Assembly (NCBI GenBank): GCA_016776905.1
Contig: JADHSM010000008.1
Coordinates: forward strand, 62,001 to 126,000
Length of the DNA: 64,000 nucleotides
From: Planctomycetota bacterium
GTDB taxonomy: Bacteria; Planctomycetota; UBA8108; UBA1146
Direction: 5' to 3'
Shown here: positions 46,760-64,000 of the stretch, piece after piece
Layout: the number at the start of each line of letters is the position of its first letter
Position numbering within the stretch: position 1 is the first letter of the stretch
Program-made: the position numbers and the translations under genes
Notes under the pieces: model-generated
The model's database searches: none
Told to the model about the DNA's origin: nothing
Seen by the model: only the letters and a program-made list of their open reading frames with translations

Positions 46760-47503
46760 TCAATTGTTGTTTTTTGATTTCACTCGACGGAAAGGATGAA
46801 TCCAGCTGGCAAAAGCCTGCGGACTGCGGCTCTGAACCCACACACGACCCTCGCCGGAAAACCTGAGCATGATCTGGTCACCAAAGAGGAATGAACGAAT
46901 CTTCCTCCCCGTGGTCAGGCGGTAATCGAGGCTCGGGTCCCACGCAACGGCGTAACCGTTATCCACTGTATAATCGCCGTCAACCTGAACAGCTTCTTCC
47001 CAGTCGTCAGCAAAATTATCATCCGCATTATTGCCGACATTTTTCCCTGAGAGAGAGACCTGCTGAATATCTCCAAAGGCATTAAAGAAAAGAGTCCCGG
47101 TTCCAGAGCACTTCAGAATAAATAAGCCCTCATTAAAAAACCCTCGAAGTCCATCAAACTTAGTATCGATCTTGATGTCACCAATGGATGCGAGATATGC
47201 ACCCTTCTGCAGGAAGACTTCTTCCCCATTGAGCTCAAGAGCCACGATAGCTCCGGAAGGACCTGGGGCCAAAGCCAAACGAGATCCCTGCTCTTCACTG
47301 GTATATGTGTTTTGAAAGAAAGATTCACCACTGAGAAAAGAACGTTTCAATCCTGCGAAAACGCCCCCTCGGGTCGAAGTTTCCATCTCGACTCCAGGAT
47401 CCATCCACGCCATCGATCCCGATTCGGATGCGATACTATCACCCGGATTGAGTTCTACTTCGAGATAGGAGTACCCCGGTTGGCATTCGATACGATATTT
47501 CAT
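46760..47503 (-). CDS. AIM24/TIGR00266-family protein
   Basis: YSYLEVELNPGDSIASESGSMAWMDPGVEMETSTRGGVFAGLKRSFLSGESFFQNTY. Confidence 0.88.
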   Translation of the reverse strand: MKYRIECQPGYSYLEVELNPGDSIASESGSMAWMDPGVEMETSTRGGVFAGLKRSFLSGESFFQNTYTSEEQGSRLALAPGPSGAIVALELNGEEVFLQKGAYLASIGDIKIDTKFDGLRGFFNEGLFILKCSGTGTLFFNAFGDIQQVSLSGKNVGNNADDNFADDWEEAVQVDGDYTVDNGYAVAWDPSLDYRLTTGRKIRSFLFGDQIMLRFSGEGRVWVQSRSPQAFASWIHPFRRVKSKNNN

Positions 47504-47506
47504 GGG

Positions 47507-48196
47507 TTACTCCCTCTCCGGTAACAACGGTCCGAGTCTTTTTCCAAACCCAGTCACATCGTGAGTCTGCACGATCAATTTTCCATGCCCCTCAAATTTC
47601 ATGACAAAGCCTTCTCCTGAAAGAAAACTCTGAGTCAGAGAACTTGCAGCCTTGGAGATCTTGTATTCCAGAGTTTTTTCGTAAGCGATGAGGTGCCCTG
47701 TATCGAGAGTGAACTCTCCAGAGACCTCGATTTCATGCAAGGCTCCGAATCCACCGACCAGAGCGTCCCCGACCCCCGACAATTCAAGGAAGAAGAGTCC
47801 TTCTCCACTGAACACATTGCCGAAACCCTGAAATCGAGTCTCCATTTCCACATCGTCGCCGCCGGCAGCAATAAATGAGCCTCCGGAACAAACCCATGTG
47901 GTCGAACCATCTAGCGAGATGGTCTTCATCTCTCCGGGAAGAACGGGTGCAAGACCCACCTCACCTTTCTCGCCCGGTCCTACCTTGTAGGTGCTCACGA
48001 AAAAAGACTCACCACTGATCATTCGTTTGAGGCCACCCATGATGCCACTCTTACCGCGGCTGCGGGTACTCACATCCATCTCGACATTTCCGGACGCACG
48101 AACCATCGCTCCGGATTCGCTGAACAGTTCTTCGCCATGTTCAAATTCGACCAGAGCAGATTGAAAAGCGCCCGTTTCGAGGATATTGAATTTCAT
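47507..48196 (-). CDS. AIM24-family protein (paralog 2)
   Basis: FQSALVEFEHGEELFSESGAMVRASGNVEMDVSTRSRGKSGIMGGLKRMISGESFFVSTY. Confidence 0.88.
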   Translation of the reverse strand: MKFNILETGAFQSALVEFEHGEELFSESGAMVRASGNVEMDVSTRSRGKSGIMGGLKRMISGESFFVSTYKVGPGEKGEVGLAPVLPGEMKTISLDGSTTWVCSGGSFIAAGGDDVEMETRFQGFGNVFSGEGLFFLELSGVGDALVGGFGALHEIEVSGEFTLDTGHLIAYEKTLEYKISKAASSLTQSFLSGEGFVMKFEGHGKLIVQTHDVTGFGKRLGPLLPERE

Positions 48197-48204
48197 CGAT
48201 CCTC

Positions 48205-48873
48205 CTATGATCTGAGGAAGGGCGTAATCCAGCCCGCCGTGCCTGTCAAATGTCGGGTCTGAACCCAGATTCTCCCCCGACCGCTAAATCGCATCACTAA
48301 ACCCTCTCCTGAAAAGAGAGTGCTCTTCAGCCCCCCTGCGCCTTCAAGACTCCAGTCGAGAGTATTTTCCCAGGCGAGGACATGGCCATTATCGACAATC
48401 AATTCACCGTCCAACTCTTTTTCAACGACAGCACCGTATGCACCGAAGAAAACATCTCCAGAACCGGACGCCTCGATGAAAAAAGCACCTTTGCCACTGA
48501 AGAAGGCTTTGAAGCCGCCAAACTGTGTTCTCATGTCGACACCGGGCGTGCACGCTGTAAAGGATCCTCCAGAGATGAGCAGCCCTTCAGAAGTCACAGG
48601 AATCTTTACCAAAGTTCCGGCAACGCAGTGAGAAAAAGCAACTTCCGATGGCCCAGTTGCCTGATATTCATTGATAAACATCGAGGTCCCACCCAGGATC
48701 TTGCGGAACAGAGAGCGGAAAAAACCGCCCATTAATTTCGCTCGAAATGAAACCGGGCCACGATGCCAATTCATGGCGCCAGAGGCGGCATGAAAAGAAT
48801 CGCCCGCTCCGAGTTTGGCACGGGCTTCTCCAAAGTCGGGATTCCCCAATATCTCGAATTCCATCGATCCCAA
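48205..48873 (-). CDS. AIM24-family protein (paralog 3)
   Basis: ARAKLGAGDSFHAASGAMNWHRGPVSFRAKLMGGFFRSLFRKILGGTSMFINEY. Confidence 0.85.
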   Translation of the reverse strand: MGSMEFEILGNPDFGEARAKLGAGDSFHAASGAMNWHRGPVSFRAKLMGGFFRSLFRKILGGTSMFINEYQATGPSEVAFSHCVAGTLVKIPVTSEGLLISGGSFTACTPGVDMRTQFGGFKAFFSGKGAFFIEASGSGDVFFGAYGAVVEKELDGELIVDNGHVLAWENTLDWSLEGAGGLKSTLFSGEGLVMRFSGRGRIWVQTRHLTGTAGWITPFLRS

Positions 48874-54908: not shown

Positions 54909-54926
54909 CGACAACCCCAACTTAAC

Positions 54927-55064
54927 CGTGGTGAGGAGCGAGTCGCTCCACCGGTAAGCCTGCGACTTCCCGAAGGACAGCCTCGACGTACTTCTCGATC
55001 ATCTTGCCGCGCCACTGGGGAGCGAAGTAAACGGGAAATTCTGACTTCAACTGGAATACGAGGC
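54927..55064 (-). pseudogene. Possible 3' remnant of a disrupted gene at the boundary of the AT-rich region
   Basis: Frame without a start, GC-richer than its neighbour: QLKSEFPVYFAPQWRGKMIEKYVEAVLREVAGLPVERLAPHHG*; family not recognised. Confidence 0.3.
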
Positions 55065-58000
55065 CTATCTGGACTCCAACAAGAAACTGCGGAAACTCTG
55101 CAATTCCTCATTCATTTGTTGAAGATTAATGAAACGATCGTTGAGATCGGGGTTTAATCCTGATCTGAAAAATTTCAAAATTCTTGGGAGCACTTCGTTC
55201 AAACGACTTTGACCCACATTGCAGACCTCGACAAGAGACCGGGTCAATTCACCTTCGAGATTACGCCATACTTCATCAACATCTGCACGATGACCATTGG
55301 AATAAACAAGATCATGCGTATCCAGTGATCCGAATTCGGAATAACAGGTAATGGCGAACTGATACCAATCGTCAAGCACGGATCGGTTGGCTGACCCCAT
55401 TAACAGAACTTCACCAGCAAGTACTTTTGAAAAACTGTACATCATTCCGTTAAGCGGTTTGGTATTTACACCACCACTAAAATCTTCCTCAGGCGGCGAC
55501 CAAAAAGGATGATACCCAGGTCCCAGATCAATATGAATACATCTGGGCCCCCTGGTGCTCCCGTCATCAACAACAATAATGTTATCTGGACAGATATCTG
55601 TAGCAAAGATGTCATGGTTTTTTGCGAGTTTATGAAGAGAAGACAAATAATCCTTAAAACTGGAAACCAGAGATACAAAATCAGAAAAAGTGACACCGCT
55701 TTCGAATCGACTTTTTAATGTTTCTCCAGGGTCACACCGAAAATACATGAATCCACGTTCTTCATTAATGAACTGAGTTAACCCAGGAAGGGAGTAACCT
55801 CGCACCCTTTCATGAAGGGCCACTTCACGATTCCATTTTTCTTCTTCAATACCGCCGGGGTTACCCTCAACACTTTTTGAAGTATTGGCTATTTTCAGAA
55901 CAAGGCCATCGGGCAGAGTACGATAGACAGTGCCAGAGGCCCCCGCACCCAACTTCGCCTCGTCAGGGTATGCATACATATCATGAGTACGAAACGGACC
56001 AGCCTGTTTCTCCATGCAATATGTCAGATAACCCTGAACTTCTTCCCATGGAAGCTCATCCAGAACTACACGCCATTCATCCCCCCTATCCTCAAGATCA
56101 TTAAGAAATCTCACATGATCTTTGAGTTGTGAAAGCGTGTCGAAGGTCCAGTCAGAAACCTCTTCAGGTAAGGAACTAACCTTCCTGAGCATATCAAGAC
56201 ATTGATCTCCCAAAACGGAGACGGGAGTATGAATACCGATCTTTGACAATAGGGCGCTTGGAACGATCCGAAAATCACTCTCAACAAACATAAGAATATA
56301 ACTATCCGAGTGCGCCAAATCTCCAATATCCTCCAGGAAGGAAATACAATTCCCAATCGTCACATTGGTGAATTCATCTGAGTCAATAGCCGCTTGCAAA
56401 TCTTCGGGGTAGGAAGAAAGTGATATCGTTGATTCGAGTAAACCCATGCCATAATCAGAGTCATTATTTTCAGAAACAGTGAAAAGTCGGTATCTATAAT
56501 TCACCGTTTTAAGCTGGGCCAATAAGGAAGAGTATAATTCACCCCCAGAATCCCAACCACATGACAACAAGATGACTTGTTTCCCGCTAACATCATCGCT
56601 ACCAAAAACAACTTCAAAAGCACTGGGAAAGAAATGTCCGTCAGGCAATACGAGTTGCCCGAATTTCTCCGTGGGAAAAGCACTGGGATTCAATAGAGCG
56701 TCACGCAACTCCACCAAAGCTTCGCGATATGACAATGAATCAGGATAATCGTCAGCATTGAGCGAGTATTCTGCAAAACAGGAAAGTTGATCGTGAAGTT
56801 GAAGATAGGGTGGCAAAGAAGAGCCAAGAAGACCGATCATTTTCAGTATCTTATTAGGCAATACCCAAAAACGATCCTCACTCCAATAAATGCTCAAATC
56901 TGTTCCAGAAACTTTATCGAGCAGGCTGATCGCACTACGTGCTGCATCTGAAAAAAGAGACGAAGAGGCCTCAAATGGACTTAGAAAATTGCCTTCAGAC
57001 AAATCCTGAGAGTTGAGTATCAACAACGCCAAGCAAGATTCATCTCTTGAAGTATCCCGAATAATATCGAACGACTGATGATCCCTGTGAATTTCAAGAC
57101 AGTCTTGAACGACCGACTCAAACAATTCATAGAACGAATCCTTGGCACAGGAAAGCAGATACCCGATTCGGTCGTCAATCTCATTGACACCAGGCGTCAA
57201 AGCCAAATCTTGCGGATCAACGGGCTCGTCGAAAATGAACCCTTGAAGATTTTCGATGGGACCAGCAACAATATCTAAATTTCGTGAGTCCAGTTCTTCG
57301 ACAACTTCTCGGATAGACGAAAGAAGTTTAATGTCGCCAATATATTGATATTGATCATAAGAAGGCCTTCCGATGGAAGACTCAAAAAAATCTTTGATTA
57401 ACTTCTCTTCTGTTTCCCCAAGATCAGAAAGATTGTTAGACCAATCGATCTGAATATCATCTGGCTTCTCAACTTTATAGGAGGATTCCCAAGGCCTTTG
57501 CCCAAAAAACCACCTGAAACAAGTCAGGAGGGTTGCATAACAATCTCTTTTTTTTCTGTGCTTGTCTTTTTCAAAAGTTGATCTTTCACCTCTGGGCAAA
57601 AGCGGAAGGAAGTCTTCTTTACCATTAAATGCTCGATCAGGATCGTCAATTCGGCAAACACTTCCAAGATCAAGAATCACTAGGTTTCCATTTTTGTCCC
57701 AACGAACGTTTGAATTACAAATATCACGAATACAGAAATTGTTTTGGTGCAATGAACAAACAAACCGCACAAGTTTCTCAAGATTCTTGAAAATATCCAA
57801 TGACGAAGCAGAAACTTTTTCCGCAGGCTGAACATCAAAGTATTTACGCACATAATATTTCAACCCGTAATCATTAGATAAATCTATTGAAGCGAGAATT
57901 TCAGGCAGTTCTACACCAGCAATTTCCCCCTTAAACTTACTTAAATCCCGGATTTTACGTATATTTTCGACTTCTACATCAAGCTCAGAATTATGAGATT

Positions 58001-59666
58001 CTGCAGAAGAAAACTTCAATATAACATGCGAGTTATGAGTTAAGTCAATCGCGGATAAAACTTTAAAAACTGAATTCGCTTGCGGTACAAGATCTCGTTC
58101 AATTTCGTATCGATCATCAATAACATCGCCGGGTTTAATCTCGGAAATTGATTTGTTACCGATTTCTGGTTGGCCACTCAATAACCTTTGAAAACCATCC
58201 TTGAAGCTTTCAATATCAAGACGCTTTTCAGCATCTGAATCTAGAGCTTTTTCAAGGAGTCTAATCAAACCTGGATAGCTCTCAGAAACTGAACCAGAAA
58301 TCGAACTCTTCAACACCAATTCACGATCAGACCGACTTCCTACACCAATATCAGAAAGTATTGAACTAGGGTTATCGCAAAGAACCGCAGATATTAGTAA
58401 TGCAGCACTATAGACATCCCCCTTGAAATGATCAGCATGATTAAACTGAACGAGAGAATCATATTCAACGGGATTCCAAATAGAGGACCTTAACTTAGCA
58501 GTAAGTCCGGTTATTGTTCGATCACTAAACTCAAGAGTACTAAATTTCACACATTCAAAACCAAAAAGACTAAGCTGCTTACTATTCTCATTAATCCACA
58601 ATGAATCGGGAGAAAGCAATCTATGAGAAAAATTTGCCCCGTGAAGCGCTTCGAAATATTCAAGCAACTGAAGACAAATCTTCATTTTTATTTCAACAGG
58701 GCATTCATTGTTTTTGAGATACGAAAAAAGCTTTTTTCTAAAATAGAGTTCCCCCGAAGACTTATCCAACGATCTCAGTGAATATATAAACCAAACACAA
58801 AGATTAGCATCATCATGAACAATTTCTGGCAGACGCAAACCAGACAAGTTCCCAAGATCTAAATCATCTTTGTATACCTTTATACGCTCGCCTAATTCTG
58901 CTAGTTGCTCCAAAAGACCAGGATCAAGCAACTCAGTATGAAAGCGAACAAAATAGTATTGAGGAGTCTTGGTATCCCGATGCTTTTCTGATAACAACCC
59001 TCGGGCATAGTGATCTGAACTTGACGTTTCCTCAATCTCAACTTTCAAATCGGGATAACGTGGACAAAACCCTCGAATTGGTCTGTTATAACCCGCATAT
59101 TTCGAAACAAAGTTAGCAAATGATTCAGAGTAATCATCAGTTTTATTAGAAGTTTTTCCCGCATATTCATTAACAATATTGATCAATTTACTAATACGAA
59201 ATACTTGATCTTTCAGCCTTTGATCTGGTTCATAATCAATATTTGCGCTGTCATTAAAAACAACATACCCGAGAACTTTGCCTCTAAAGTTCCTCAACGC
59301 ACCTTTTATTTCTTTTGCATTATTAAGTATTTTTGTTAAAGGATTATCATGCCATTCTATACTAGATCGACGATCGACTTCCCATTGATCACTTTTATAA
59401 ACAGTTACAGGGAATTGGTAGTATTTTAGATCAACAATCCAAATCCGATCTTTGCACCTAATAATACAATCGATTTCTCGATCTTTTAATTCTCGATCTT
59501 TGAATAGTCGGCAATCAGCATTTGTGACTATCGTCACATTATCAGCGAGTTGTTCGTCCAAAGTTTCAATTAATGACACTTCGCTGCGCTTAGGTCGTCC
59601 TTTTGGAATTACTCGCTCGCTGTACCCAAATTCACTCCTGATAAGGATTTCATCTTTTACAGACAC
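55065..59666 (-). CDS. NERD-domain protein with three kinase-like domains (PglW-like architecture)
   Basis: N-terminal DREIDCIIRCKDRIWIVDLKYYQ (NERD); degenerate kinase (HRLLSPDSLW); second kinase (HVILKF, IRDICNSNVRW, VILDLGS); third kinase (KLGAGASGTVYR, LVLKIAN, ATDICPDNIIV, IHIDLGPGYHPFW). GTG start at 59666. Confidence 0.85.
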   Translation of the reverse strand: MSVKDEILIRSEFGYSERVIPKGRPKRSEVSLIETLDEQLADNVTIVTNADCRLFKDRELKDREIDCIIRCKDRIWIVDLKYYQFPVTVYKSDQWEVDRRSSIEWHDNPLTKILNNAKEIKGALRNFRGKVLGYVVFNDSANIDYEPDQRLKDQVFRISKLINIVNEYAGKTSNKTDDYSESFANFVSKYAGYNRPIRGFCPRYPDLKVEIEETSSSDHYARGLLSEKHRDTKTPQYYFVRFHTELLDPGLLEQLAELGERIKVYKDDLDLGNLSGLRLPEIVHDDANLCVWFIYSLRSLDKSSGELYFRKKLFSYLKNNECPVEIKMKICLQLLEYFEALHGANFSHRLLSPDSLWINENSKQLSLFGFECVKFSTLEFSDRTITGLTAKLRSSIWNPVEYDSLVQFNHADHFKGDVYSAALLISAVLCDNPSSILSDIGVGSRSDRELVLKSSISGSVSESYPGLIRLLEKALDSDAEKRLDIESFKDGFQRLLSGQPEIGNKSISEIKPGDVIDDRYEIERDLVPQANSVFKVLSAIDLTHNSHVILKFSSAESHNSELDVEVENIRKIRDLSKFKGEIAGVELPEILASIDLSNDYGLKYYVRKYFDVQPAEKVSASSLDIFKNLEKLVRFVCSLHQNNFCIRDICNSNVRWDKNGNLVILDLGSVCRIDDPDRAFNGKEDFLPLLPRGERSTFEKDKHRKKRDCYATLLTCFRWFFGQRPWESSYKVEKPDDIQIDWSNNLSDLGETEEKLIKDFFESSIGRPSYDQYQYIGDIKLLSSIREVVEELDSRNLDIVAGPIENLQGFIFDEPVDPQDLALTPGVNEIDDRIGYLLSCAKDSFYELFESVVQDCLEIHRDHQSFDIIRDTSRDESCLALLILNSQDLSEGNFLSPFEASSSLFSDAARSAISLLDKVSGTDLSIYWSEDRFWVLPNKILKMIGLLGSSLPPYLQLHDQLSCFAEYSLNADDYPDSLSYREALVELRDALLNPSAFPTEKFGQLVLPDGHFFPSAFEVVFGSDDVSGKQVILLSCGWDSGGELYSSLLAQLKTVNYRYRLFTVSENNDSDYGMGLLESTISLSSYPEDLQAAIDSDEFTNVTIGNCISFLEDIGDLAHSDSYILMFVESDFRIVPSALLSKIGIHTPVSVLGDQCLDMLRKVSSLPEEVSDWTFDTLSQLKDHVRFLNDLEDRGDEWRVVLDELPWEEVQGYLTYCMEKQAGPFRTHDMYAYPDEAKLGAGASGTVYRTLPDGLVLKIANTSKSVEGNPGGIEEEKWNREVALHERVRGYSLPGLTQFINEERGFMYFRCDPGETLKSRFESGVTFSDFVSLVSSFKDYLSSLHKLAKNHDIFATDICPDNIIVVDDGSTRGPRCIHIDLGPGYHPFWSPPEEDFSGGVNTKPLNGMMYSFSKVLAGEVLLMGSANRSVLDDWYQFAITCYSEFGSLDTHDLVYSNGHRADVDEVWRNLEGELTRSLVEVCNVGQSRLNEVLPRILKFFRSGLNPDLNDRFINLQQMNEELQSFRSFLLESR
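59475..59504. repeat. Tandem duplication, 2 x 15 bp, inside the NERD region (FKDRELKDRE)
   Basis: Direct reading. Confidence 0.8.
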
Positions 59667-59675
59667 AATGAATCT

Positions 59676-62600
59676 CTATTCAATTATTAATCGTTCTATC
59701 CAACGATTCTCAAGCCGAATCCAGCGGATTTCGTCTTCAGAGACAATCCATAACTTTCCCACAGAATCTTCCAAAAACAAACTACCTTTTGAAGGCCTGT
59801 AAACTTCGACCCCATCAATCAATAGTGAAGACGAATTATTCGTTATTACATTGCCAGCTTCAATACTGTAATCGCCAAACTGTAGATCACTTTTAAGACC
59901 AGGATTCCAGAACAAAGGATCATCAAATCGTTCTAAATCCTTATTCGTAACCCTATATCGATTATTATCGAGTACTTGAGGAAAAGGGTATACAGATTTC
60001 AGATAGTCTTTTTCAAGATCGATGACATGATCCCATGCAAATCCATCTTTAAAAAAGATCTCTTCTTTCAAATCGCTGCTTACGGCTTCAATAACACCCA
60101 ATACAGAATCATGATAAACGAGATCATTCCCGGTACGGCTGATAAAGCCTGAATCCCAATTCGCAAGGACATAAGACTGGGGATTTCCAAGACTCCAATC
60201 AGAGTTAGATTTTTGAAATTGAAAAAACTCACCGGAGTCACTTTTCAGGTACAGACTCACATTTAACTCATCTGTAGATTGAACTTTCAAAAATTCATAA
60301 CCAGCAACCGTTTCTGCTTCAGGCAAGGATGACAAGACGGAATTAGAATTATCTTGACCGACTTCCACGAACCGATCATTCAACAAAAACAACTTGGATT
60401 CATGCACTTCATGGTCACTCACCACATCCCATGGAAAACCGCTTAAATCAGAGGAAATATTTTTTTGATCCGATCGGCTGGATCCTTTAGGTTGATAGGC
60501 TAATTGGATCCCCCGATCTAAAGAGGGACCTCCAATACGCACAACGCTATCTCCCTCAATGCCTTCAAATGACATCGATGTTTGAGATCCACTTAAACCG
60601 AGATTCAGATTGATATTTCTGGTAGCGAAAACTGTTGGTTTTTTCTCAATCAGGCCTGTGACATTAACATGAAATTCCAAATTTTTACTGGTCAGCAAAC
60701 TGGATTCAGTAGAAGCATGGCTGCGTCTTTTTTGGCTGAAATCACCGGACAAACGACTGTTGTAGGGACCCACTATTAGAGTATCTGCAGCATCGTTGAA
60801 CATTTCCCAATAGTTTTCGGTGTATCGCACTACTCGACCAGCTTCTGAAATGACTCCACTGCTTCTATCCCATTTCAAAGGAAAAACGGCTTCATCGTTG
60901 GTGGTTGCTGTACGCAAATTTCCGTTGTCATCAATCCGGTGAACGCGAAATTCAGACACGGTTTCGTCAAATCTCACATAGGGTGTTTCTGCTAATACAA
61001 TCACACCATCTTCAGCACCAACGACAATATCACCATTAGCTGCGTACCAGGCTTTATCGCTAGATTTCCGAAATGTTATCTCCTTGCCATGGGAGTGAAT
61101 TTGTGAAATTGATCTGAACCCCAGATCATGTAATCCATTTACCCACGAAAAATCAGTGGGATTTCTGATGACAACACCACCCTGAGTTGCAAGAGCGACG
61201 AATGACTGCTCTTCAATGTTTTCAAACTGCAAGTCATTAACTATATCGTGAAGGTATGCAATTTTTGGAAGAGGACTTGATGGATCAATGGCAGCCAAGG
61301 TTCCGACCCAACCATCTGGCCACTTGATCTGAGTATTTGCCACATTTTTTTCAACTATGTAGGGATAATCCAAAACAACTTGAGAATCTATGAGATCTTG
61401 ATTTCCAAATTTTACCCAACTGTGATTTCCGGGCTTATCCCCTTCCACCAAAAACATTACTTCATTATTGGATTCCATCCCTAAATACAAACCTTGATTA
61501 TCTCCTGTGAATTGATATCCATTCCGAAGGGTATAAGGGTTATTCATAGTCTCGTGAATCCGGTATGGTAATTTTTCAAATTTCTCATCTACCAACAATA
61601 AATCTTTAGAATTGTCATTACCTGAAATTTCCAGCAGAACACCTGTGGACAATGGTCGTATGGAAACAGGCAAATCAAACTCGAAATGGCCTTCTCTGAA
61701 TGGGATTGGGATGCTGGGTGAATTTTGAATCAGTAATTCAAACGAATATAACTCGCCTCCTCGATTCCAAGAATAATGTTTCAAGCGACCTTCATTGAAC
61801 CTGTAGCTTTCTTCTATTTCCGTATAATTTTCTAATTCGACAGGTTTCCAGACCGAGCCAGAACCAAGTTCAAAATATTCCCCAAGACCTGAAATATTCA
61901 CCACCGTATTGGAATTAGTTCTCGCGAATCCATGTTTGTATGAACTGCTCGTCTGTGAAAGGTCCATCGCTACCGGAAACAATACTGGACGGAGATTTGT
62001 ACTTCCGTTAGTGCTTACTTCTTCACCGGAGAACAACAATCCTGAGTTCGTTGCGACCAAGAGAAGATTGTCACTTTTTGCCAAACTAGTACACATATGG
62101 ATTGAGACCAATCCATCTCTTAGCCCCCCCCTGATCGGCCGAACCTCCTCACCAGAAATCCAACAAACCTCTCGCGATTCATTTGAAAAGTCTTTTACAA
62201 CACCAAGACCTGTCGATGTGGTTGGTAAAATTGGATCTGGCCATTGAGGAATCGAACCAAGTTTCACGACTACTGGTGTCCATTGGTCGCCGGAAACGGA
62301 GACCTCACCGTCCTGACAAAACCACAACGATCTGTTATTTGTCCCAACCATAGATTGTCGATTTGAGTCAGAACTCAAAATAAATCGGCTGAAGTTTCCT
62401 GATTCCGAAAGATATTCGAACTGAGGATCATCGGATAAATCCCTGCCTGTGAATTGAAAATCAATTTCTTCTCCCACGACCACTGATACAAGCGAAGACA
62501 CTCGACTAACATTTTGGCATCGATACTTCTCCCTAGTAAAGGGACCGAGATCTTCCGAGGACACCCAACGATCGGATTTTTTTTCATATCTAAATACTGT

Positions 62601-64000
62601 GTTGCCTTTTGAAAGAACCCACGCGTCAAGGCTGGAATCAGCTTTGAAGTCTTGAACTTCAGAAAGGGCAAAAGGCAATCCTCTGCTATACTCGAAATTT
62701 TCAGGGTTCGAATAGCTTCGATAGAAAACACTCTCTGAATCAAGACCCACAAGATAACCATTATTAAAGTCGTAAAATTTCGGGAACTCATATGAAAAGG
62801 TTCCATTTTTCAAACTCAGCGCACCAGAAAACCCTGATTTTCCTTCGTTCATAAGACAAAAGTACTGGCCGTCTATCAAAGAATAAGAACATAAAGGATC
62901 GTTTCTGCTTTTTACCTTTTGTTCTTTTCGATTAGGGATCTCGCCTTGATATTCCAGAACATCAAACTGGCCACGCCTATCGACTTTCAGTGAAAATCTG
63001 CTACCGCAATGCATATAAATTTCACCATCACGTTCTTCAACAATATCTGGGAACTCGTGCTCAAAACAATCGCCGAGAAATGAAGAAAACGTTAGGCTGC
63101 CATCAGACAGTTCAATATTCGTTGCAACATTAGGATACAGTTCTGCCTTGCTGGAACTGAAGACCAGTTGATCTACTGAAAAATCTGTATTTTCGAAACG
63201 AAATATTTGCTTATCTTGAAATGATGTTGGAACAAGACCAGATCCACGAAGACGATATGATGAATTTCCATTAAAAATACCAGCGAAAACATCGCCGCTT
63301 TCACCTTCAAACCACCCAAACGAGGAATCAGGATCAACGCCGGCTTGGATCAACTGACGACGACCGTTTTCATGAATCCACAAATATTTGCCACACAAGA
63401 CATAGGTTTTTCTATCAATGGAAATCACGTCCCTGGGGTAATCCCAAATTGGCTTGGACCCATTTGAGATAACTTGATCACGAACATTCGCAGACCAACC
63501 CTCGTTTGACACGGAAAATGATTTTCGATTCAGGTTATGAACCCAGGTCCAATTATCGGCTTCGAACTCTTTCGGGTAGATGTAGTTGTAGATATCAACC
63601 GATTGCTGAACTTCCCTAAGATTGCGATCCCACCAACGTCCGTCGGCTGACCTTGCAAAACAAACACCTTCAACTTCACCCAAAGCATTAAAGCGTTCCC
63701 TCTGAAAACGTCCATCTTGCAATGAGAGAACCCAATCCTTATCCCCGTAGACATCCAAATAATTAGGGCGGAAAAACGGCCTCAAAAACGAGGGCGATTC
63801 CAATACATCTGAAAACTCTAATTTTTCAAATTCGTTTATTGAGTTTCCTTGAAGGCCCCATTTTTGATCACCTGTATACATGAAAGTTTTATTTTCGAAG
63901 CCGTAAAGAGTAACAACTACCCCTTGATCAACTACGTAACAACTTTTTATTTCCCCATATTTATTTATTACGGAAAGATCTGCTAGAGCCAAGTTTGTCT
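59676..64000 (-). CDS. Very large beta-propeller-like protein of unknown function; 5' end runs off the window
   Basis: More than 1438 aa in one open frame. Recurring short strand motifs such as LLVATNSGLLFSGEEV, SFVALATQGGVVIRNPTDFSWVNGL, WYAANGDIVVGAEDGVIVLAE; the frame is open past the TTG at 63992. Confidence 0.75.
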   Translation of the reverse strand, partial: TNLALADLSVINKYGEIKSCYVVDQGVVVTLYGFENKTFMYTGDQKWGLQGNSINEFEKLEFSDVLESPSFLRPFFRPNYLDVYGDKDWVLSLQDGRFQRERFNALGEVEGVCFARSADGRWWDRNLREVQQSVDIYNYIYPKEFEADNWTWVHNLNRKSFSVSNEGWSANVRDQVISNGSKPIWDYPRDVISIDRKTYVLCGKYLWIHENGRRQLIQAGVDPDSSFGWFEGESGDVFAGIFNGNSSYRLRGSGLVPTSFQDKQIFRFENTDFSVDQLVFSSSKAELYPNVATNIELSDGSLTFSSFLGDCFEHEFPDIVEERDGEIYMHCGSRFSLKVDRRGQFDVLEYQGEIPNRKEQKVKSRNDPLCSYSLIDGQYFCLMNEGKSGFSGALSLKNGTFSYEFPKFYDFNNGYLVGLDSESVFYRSYSNPENFEYSRGLPFALSEVQDFKADSSLDAWVLSKGNTVFRYEKKSDRWVSSEDLGPFTREKYRCQNVSRVSSLVSVVVGEEIDFQFTGRDLSDDPQFEYLSESGNFSRFILSSDSNRQSMVGTNNRSLWFCQDGEVSVSGDQWTPVVVKLGSIPQWPDPILPTTSTGLGVVKDFSNESREVCWISGEEVRPIRGGLRDGLVSIHMCTSLAKSDNLLLVATNSGLLFSGEEVSTNGSTNLRPVLFPVAMDLSQTSSSYKHGFARTNSNTVVNISGLGEYFELGSGSVWKPVELENYTEIEESYRFNEGRLKHYSWNRGGELYSFELLIQNSPSIPIPFREGHFEFDLPVSIRPLSTGVLLEISGNDNSKDLLLVDEKFEKLPYRIHETMNNPYTLRNGYQFTGDNQGLYLGMESNNEVMFLVEGDKPGNHSWVKFGNQDLIDSQVVLDYPYIVEKNVANTQIKWPDGWVGTLAAIDPSSPLPKIAYLHDIVNDLQFENIEEQSFVALATQGGVVIRNPTDFSWVNGLHDLGFRSISQIHSHGKEITFRKSSDKAWYAANGDIVVGAEDGVIVLAETPYVRFDETVSEFRVHRIDDNGNLRTATTNDEAVFPLKWDRSSGVISEAGRVVRYTENYWEMFNDAADTLIVGPYNSRLSGDFSQKRRSHASTESSLLTSKNLEFHVNVTGLIEKKPTVFATRNINLNLGLSGSQTSMSFEGIEGDSVVRIGGPSLDRGIQLAYQPKGSSRSDQKNISSDLSGFPWDVVSDHEVHESKLFLLNDRFVEVGQDNSNSVLSSLPEAETVAGYEFLKVQSTDELNVSLYLKSDSGEFFQFQKSNSDWSLGNPQSYVLANWDSGFISRTGNDLVYHDSVLGVIEAVSSDLKEEIFFKDGFAWDHVIDLEKDYLKSVYPFPQVLDNNRYRVTNKDLERFDDPLFWNPGLKSDLQFGDYSIEAGNVITNNSSSLLIDGVEVYRPSKGSLFLEDSVGKLWIVSEDEIRWIRLENRWIERLIIE

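Follow-up and report, generated by a model that had tools for sequence, protein, structure and literature searches.

The window considered here is a 64,000-nucleotide stretch of a Planctomycetota genome (assembly GCA_016776905.1, contig JADHSM010000008.1, positions 62,001 to 126,000). On its reverse strand, at 55065..59666, lies a gene with a GTG start and a guanine-plus-cytosine (GC) content of 40.2%, whose 1,533-residue product carries, in order, a nuclease-related NERD domain, a pseudokinase, a kinase, a linker and a further kinase; it is termed the triple-kinase gene below. Scanned as a whole, the protein matches Pfam Pkinase at E = 6.4e-13, spread over three stretches, and Pfam NERD at E = 2.6e-10 at the N-terminus (residues 49-137). 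When scanned singly, kinase-like domains 1, 2 and 3 (K1, K2 and K3) also match Pkinase, at E = 0.0033, 6.1e-5 and 8.5e-4, respectively. Profile-profile comparison with hhalign aligned K1 with the corresponding domain of the defence proteins MkoA and PglW at 97.5% (8e-12), K2 with ordinary Ser/Thr kinases at 96.5% (1e-9) and with MkoA/PglW K2 at 91.9%, and K3 with ordinary Ser/Thr kinases at 97.8% alone (1.3e-12) and 98.8% together with its one relative (7e-17), while the negative controls (linker, NERD domain and every reversed sequence) each stayed below 1%. An earlier note on this DNA had proposed three kinase-like domains, and the single-region matches and clean controls confirm, at the level of sequence profiles, three kinase-related regions beyond chance rather than only one with a kinase fold. 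Every motif the note quoted was located in the protein, and its order of pseudokinase, kinase, linker and kinase holds; what it overlooked is the NERD nuclease domain ahead of K1. AlphaFold models built for residues 1-810 (from the single sequence) and for the linker plus K3 (with one relative) were of low confidence (predicted local distance difference test, 34.5 and 37.0), so that the kinase folds are backed by sequence profiles and not by structure.

Domains of the triple-kinase protein

The NERD domain (residues 1-199, 59070..59666), of the PD-(D/E)xK type, matches Pfam PF08378 at 1.7e-11 when scanned alone; its (D/E)xK element is D79-L80-K81, and E29, D66 and K81 are invariant in a 10-sequence alignment of relatives. 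K1 (residues ~205-505, 58152..59054) reads HRLLSPDSLW (348-357) in place of HRD..N and LSLFGFE (365-371), with LFGFE in place of DFG, and has no Lys at the VAIK position (YYFVRFHTE). K1 is degenerate in all 12 relatives aligned (8 MkoA and 4 PglW proteins), none of which retains the DFG Asp: SGF/SNF-type or FNW-type sequences occupy this position, and the catalytic loop is HRALSP or HRGLCP in PglW, while MkoA mostly keeps HRD and loses the Asn. Degeneracy is therefore ancestral rather than peculiar to this protein, and the designation of K1 as a pseudokinase agrees with what has been published for PglW (PMC12839542). K2 (residues ~511-800, 57267..58136), recognised from its Pkinase match, the hhalign comparison and its conserved catalytic residues, carries HVILKFS (547-553, with Lys551), IRDICNSNV (646-654, with Asp648 and Asn653) and VILDLGS (663-669, with Asp666); across the 10-sequence alignment D648, N653 and D666 do not vary, and K551 reaches at least 90% conservation.

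NERD, K1 and K2 are collinear, end to end, with the 8 MkoA and 4 PglW proteins, and alignment with PglW from within the phylum shows the N-terminal order of NERD, pseudokinase and kinase to be shared. Profile searches with both PADLOC and NCBIfam ranked MkoA (8.7e-26), MAD6 (7.8e-12 in PADLOC, 5.5e-25 in NCBIfam) and PglW (6e-11 and 3e-10) first, all of them defence families, and an Acidovorax plasmid protein matched by tblastn proved to be a full-length MkoA (1,699 bits). Judged by sequence, the unit formed by NERD, pseudokinase 1 and kinase 2 is the module of PglW, MkoA, MAD6-like and some DndF proteins, and the pseudokinase-kinase layout is thus inherited from a known defence module. The pair is itself already known from phage-defence proteins, having been published behind a NERD domain for PglW (PMC12839542) and for some DndF proteins (PMC10853773), and the internal regulation suggested for it in the earlier note is plausible.

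The linker (residues 801-1222, ~420 residues, 56001..57266) belongs to no recognisable family by Pfam or hhalign and gave no Pfam family match when scanned singly. A vWA domain suspected there by eye scored 0.3% in profile comparison, equal to the reversed control, the C-terminal helicase of MkoA found no match in the linker plus K3, and the 1,533-residue protein has no Walker A motif. This half of the protein also bears on the idea that the gene belongs to an incomplete BREX type 2 system and encodes its PglW in divergent form. Such a reading would account for the N-terminal order, which is that of PglW, but the PglW C-terminus matches the linker and K3 half at 0.3% against 100% for the positive control, the NCBIfam PglW model gives 38 bits against a cut-off of 990, and neither PglX nor PglZ is seen in the visible part of the island described below; the idea is disfavoured and highly improbable.

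K3 (residues 1223-1533, 55068..56000) has a complete Gly-loop, GAGASGTVY (1240-1248), followed by LVLKIAN (1255-1261, with Lys1258), ATDICPDN (1355-1362, with Asp1357 and Asn1362) and IHIDLGPG (1377-1384, with Asp1380); ATD replaces HRD, as in the non-RD type. Its scores against ordinary kinases exceed those against the K1 and K2 families, which suggests that it was recruited separately. The earlier proposal that kinases 2 and 3 are both apparently catalytic fits the retention of the Lys, Asp, Asn and DLG Asp in each, and K3 is probably an active Ser/Thr-type kinase. A point against activity of K2 is its Gly-loop, which reads VPQANSVFK and lacks glycines. K3 might accordingly be the sole active kinase, with K2 a second pseudokinase in a two-pseudokinase scaffold, an arrangement compatible with the island role favoured below; yet K2 keeps all four catalytic residues, and MkoA K2 likewise lacks a standard Gly-loop, so that this arrangement appears unlikely.

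The island and its distribution

The kinase gene is the last in a run of visible island genes, all on one strand and of similarly low GC. Between the S41 peptidase gene and the kinase gene lies the left copy (54924..55028, no strand assigned) of a 105-base-pair (bp) direct repeat flanking the island, with 91 bp exact and 103/105 bp identical (98%) to C15:5474-5578, on a second contig of the same genome, where it forms the 3' end of a xanthine-dehydrogenase-type medium-subunit gene. The genome holds these two copies and no third. In the comparison genome G004, one copy stands directly after the S41 gene at an uninterrupted site, and what follows the S41 peptidase in G004, G009 and G008 is a set of xanthine-dehydrogenase-type enzyme genes and no kinase; in the genome under study, contig C15 carries these enzyme genes, and five same-strand open reading frames (ORFs) stand ahead of them at its start. 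GC between the repeats is 40.2-43.0%, against 51.0% (standard deviation 0.9%) in the rest of the window. The picture is one of site-specific insertion of at least 19 kb into the 3' end of a gene, and the island looks recently acquired and mobile.

In the phylum genomes searched, the others sampled from its genus among them, the triple-kinase protein has no full-length relative, a pattern that fits an accessory gene; a whole-protein search of genome contigs returned no relatives, the best that viral contigs yielded were local matches to kinase motifs, and phages gave no relative and plasmids only MkoA. The sole K3 relative found, and the only hit when the K3 alignment was searched against genome contigs, is a 177-residue stretch at the edge of a 4,388-bp contig (JABHOG010000143.1) of Planctomycetota bacterium SI037S4_bin26 (G011), of the same family but a different genus. 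That contig also carries an orthologue of the S41 peptidase that adjoins the kinase gene in the window, so that the same neighbourhood is occupied in both genomes. Between the peptidase and the K3 relative stands a gene with FG-GAP-like repeats (L058:1379-3559), and the kinase fragment has a GC content of 51%, against 59-63% in its neighbours, which again suggests foreign origin. Elsewhere in the phylum, the strong end-to-end matches among NERD-pseudokinase-kinase genes have lengths that fit PglW, and the three that were read whole are PglW, with PglX-like genes adjoining two of them. In a further planctomycete genome (G250, L188:412-4377), an MkoA-like NERD-pseudokinase-kinase gene is broken into two frames, with inserted-looking DNA between them.

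These observations also bear on whether the protein might be a host signalling kinase with no defence role, its NERD domain a structural relic. Planctomycetota are rich in Ser/Thr kinases, matches to this class are numerous across the phylum, and K3 is closest to ordinary members of that class. Absence of the gene from the other sampled genomes of the genus, its low GC and the attachment-site-like repeat at the insertion argue otherwise, however, as do the intact catalytic residues of NERD and the best matches, which all fall in defence families; such a role is quite improbable. Elsewhere in the window, at 46760-48873, lie three tandem paralogous genes (247, 229 and 222 residues) of AIM24-type appearance, which are adjacent also in a related genome (L087).

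Neighbouring genes and a candidate MoxR-linked role

The kinase gene is preceded on its strand by a giant gene that runs to the end of contig C22, on which the window lies, with at least 3,061 codons visible; its C-terminal 1,440 residues are encoded at 59676..63998, and the kinase gene starts 9 bases past its stop. The encoded protein is beta-rich by appearance, and its mean internal similarity is 22.08, against 21.31 in shuffles (standard deviation 0.12); it is possibly propeller-like. The five C15 ORFs (L080:1-5548), outside the window but on the same island and on one strand, include a 403-residue ORF cut by the contig start and a MoxR ATPase gene, the stop of the latter overlapping the start of the former; the remaining three encode an unknown 418-residue protein, a 273-residue membrane (transmembrane)/coiled-coil protein and a 332-residue protein that is sigma-like by eye. 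Between the coiled-coil gene and the 418-residue gene (L080:3380-3600) is a long, terminator-like inverted repeat (AAAAATGCTTCGATC...GATCGAAGCATTTTT), and transcription of the island may accordingly be divided among more than one unit.

Against Pfam bpMoxR, the MoxR ATPase scores 173 bits (1.6e-50), while no generic MoxR match listed for the sampled genomes exceeds ~71 bits; the curated bpMoxR cut-off of 27 bits is non-discriminating, being exceeded also in E. coli and others. In another genome (G096, L120:7454-12830), a similar bpMoxR ATPase (2e-41) adjoins a vWA gene and a gene for a 647-residue SAVED-domain protein, downstream of a helicase gene. This is a possible SAVED-linked MoxR-vWA defence locus, and the company of the bpMoxR gene there indicates a defence setting.

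Taken together, the architecture of the protein, the homology of its N-terminal half and the gene order are best read, with a little over even confidence, as those of a nuclease-kinase component of a mobile, horizontally acquired, defence-type island linked to MoxR. Several observations weigh against this reading. The island is split between the end of C22 and the start of C15 by a gap of unknown size, no overlap joins the two contigs, and their adjacency is deduced from synteny and the shared repeat. No integrase was found linked to the visible island, and among the genome's integrase and vWA genes, considered as candidates for filling the contig gap, none is obviously linked to it. The visible island genes include no vWA domain, the gap falling directly after the ORF that follows MoxR, and no bpX domains, where a canonical locus shows bpX0-bpX4, part of the island being missing. 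The giant protein has only weak Pfam scores (PQQ_2, 0.021; NHL, 0.21), and an iterative search of it for propeller blades built no repeat family. A NERD-kinase occurs in none of the 32 other bpMoxR neighbourhoods sampled (0/32), so that the pairing has been seen once, and no phage-defence phenotype is known for the triple-kinase protein.

Some of these same observations lend a minority share of probability, larger than that of any other rival considered here, to a stand-alone defence kinase of PglW/MkoA type that merely neighbours the giant and MoxR operon by chance in a composite island, with no MoxR coupling and with K3 as its own sensor or effector. Clustering in islands is common among bacterial defence genes, NERD-kinases are missing from the other bpMoxR neighbourhoods sampled, and the contig gap sets the MoxR genes apart from those for the giant protein and the kinase. 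The 9-base spacing from the giant gene on the same strand, and the common strand and similar low GC of all visible island genes, speak for association instead.

In modules of this kind, NERD is usually modelled as a nuclease effector and the pseudokinase as a regulatory scaffold, with kinase 2 phosphorylating its own protein, a partner or an invader target. If the kinase protein does belong with the MoxR-linked island, we infer for it a defence function, a partnership, enzyme activities and an order of events of the following kind. The giant protein and the MoxR ATPase would sense or remodel a trigger made by the invader, thereby freeing the kinase protein from an inhibited state in which the pseudokinase acts as scaffold. 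Kinases 2 and 3 would then phosphorylate the kinase protein, its partners or invader targets, and phosphorylation would license the NERD nuclease to act on DNA, possibly killing the infected cell. This full scheme, in which a two-step kinase switch within one polypeptide gates a NERD nuclease, a MoxR ATPase and a giant propeller sensor drive the switch, and the island moves site-specifically, is tentative and decidedly less probable than a MoxR-linked, defence-type nuclease-kinase as such.

Comparison with known systems

Four NERD-kinase families resemble the triple-kinase protein in part. It is closest to MkoA of type I Mokosh (NERD, pseudokinase, kinase and superfamily 1 helicase), its top profile match, with which NERD, the degenerate K1 and K2 align end to end and which shares an 'xSLW' sequence after the K1 catalytic loop; it differs in having neither the helicase nor a Walker A motif, in its own linker and third kinase, and in its neighbour genes. 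With PglW of BREX type 2, which continues into a DNA-binding and iSTAND C-terminus (PMC12839542), it shares NERD, the degenerate K1 and an active-looking K2, but the C-terminal half is unrelated, the family score falls far below its cut-off, as given above, and no BREX genes are seen in the visible island. The kinase MAD6 of the methylation-associated defence system is the second-best profile match (5.5e-25), yet the protein reaches 87.9 bits against a cut-off of 460, and the MAD6 model, at 612 positions, has no room for a third kinase. A subset of DndF proteins combines NERD with inactive and active kinases in the same N-terminal order (PMC10853773), but the P-loop (Walker A) motif of the DndF core is absent here. 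As the protein fails a defining feature of each, it is set apart from MkoA, PglW, MAD6 and DndF as a NERD-kinase variant. The third kinase and linker, and the association with a giant protein and bpMoxR, appear new, having been seen nowhere else in the collections searched. The presence of a second, independent-looking and apparently active kinase would make the conserved pseudokinase-kinase pair approachable by mutating one kinase at a time.

On the side of the island, the nearest parallel is the group of MoxR-vWA-beta-propeller ternary conflict systems described from planctomycetes and others (Kaur et al. 2020, PMC7159879). The likeness is that one island in a planctomycete host combines a bpMoxR-type ATPase with a giant protein that may be a propeller; the difference lies in the lack of bpX or vWA in the visible island and in the presence of a nuclease-kinase, those systems having been described without conventional effector modules. 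If the NERD nuclease and its kinases do belong with the bpMoxR island, they would constitute a candidate effector for systems described without one (PMC7159879), and the shared island would offer a direct route to testing how the MoxR ATPase controls it. The protein would also connect two defence families, the PglW/MkoA kinases and the MoxR systems.

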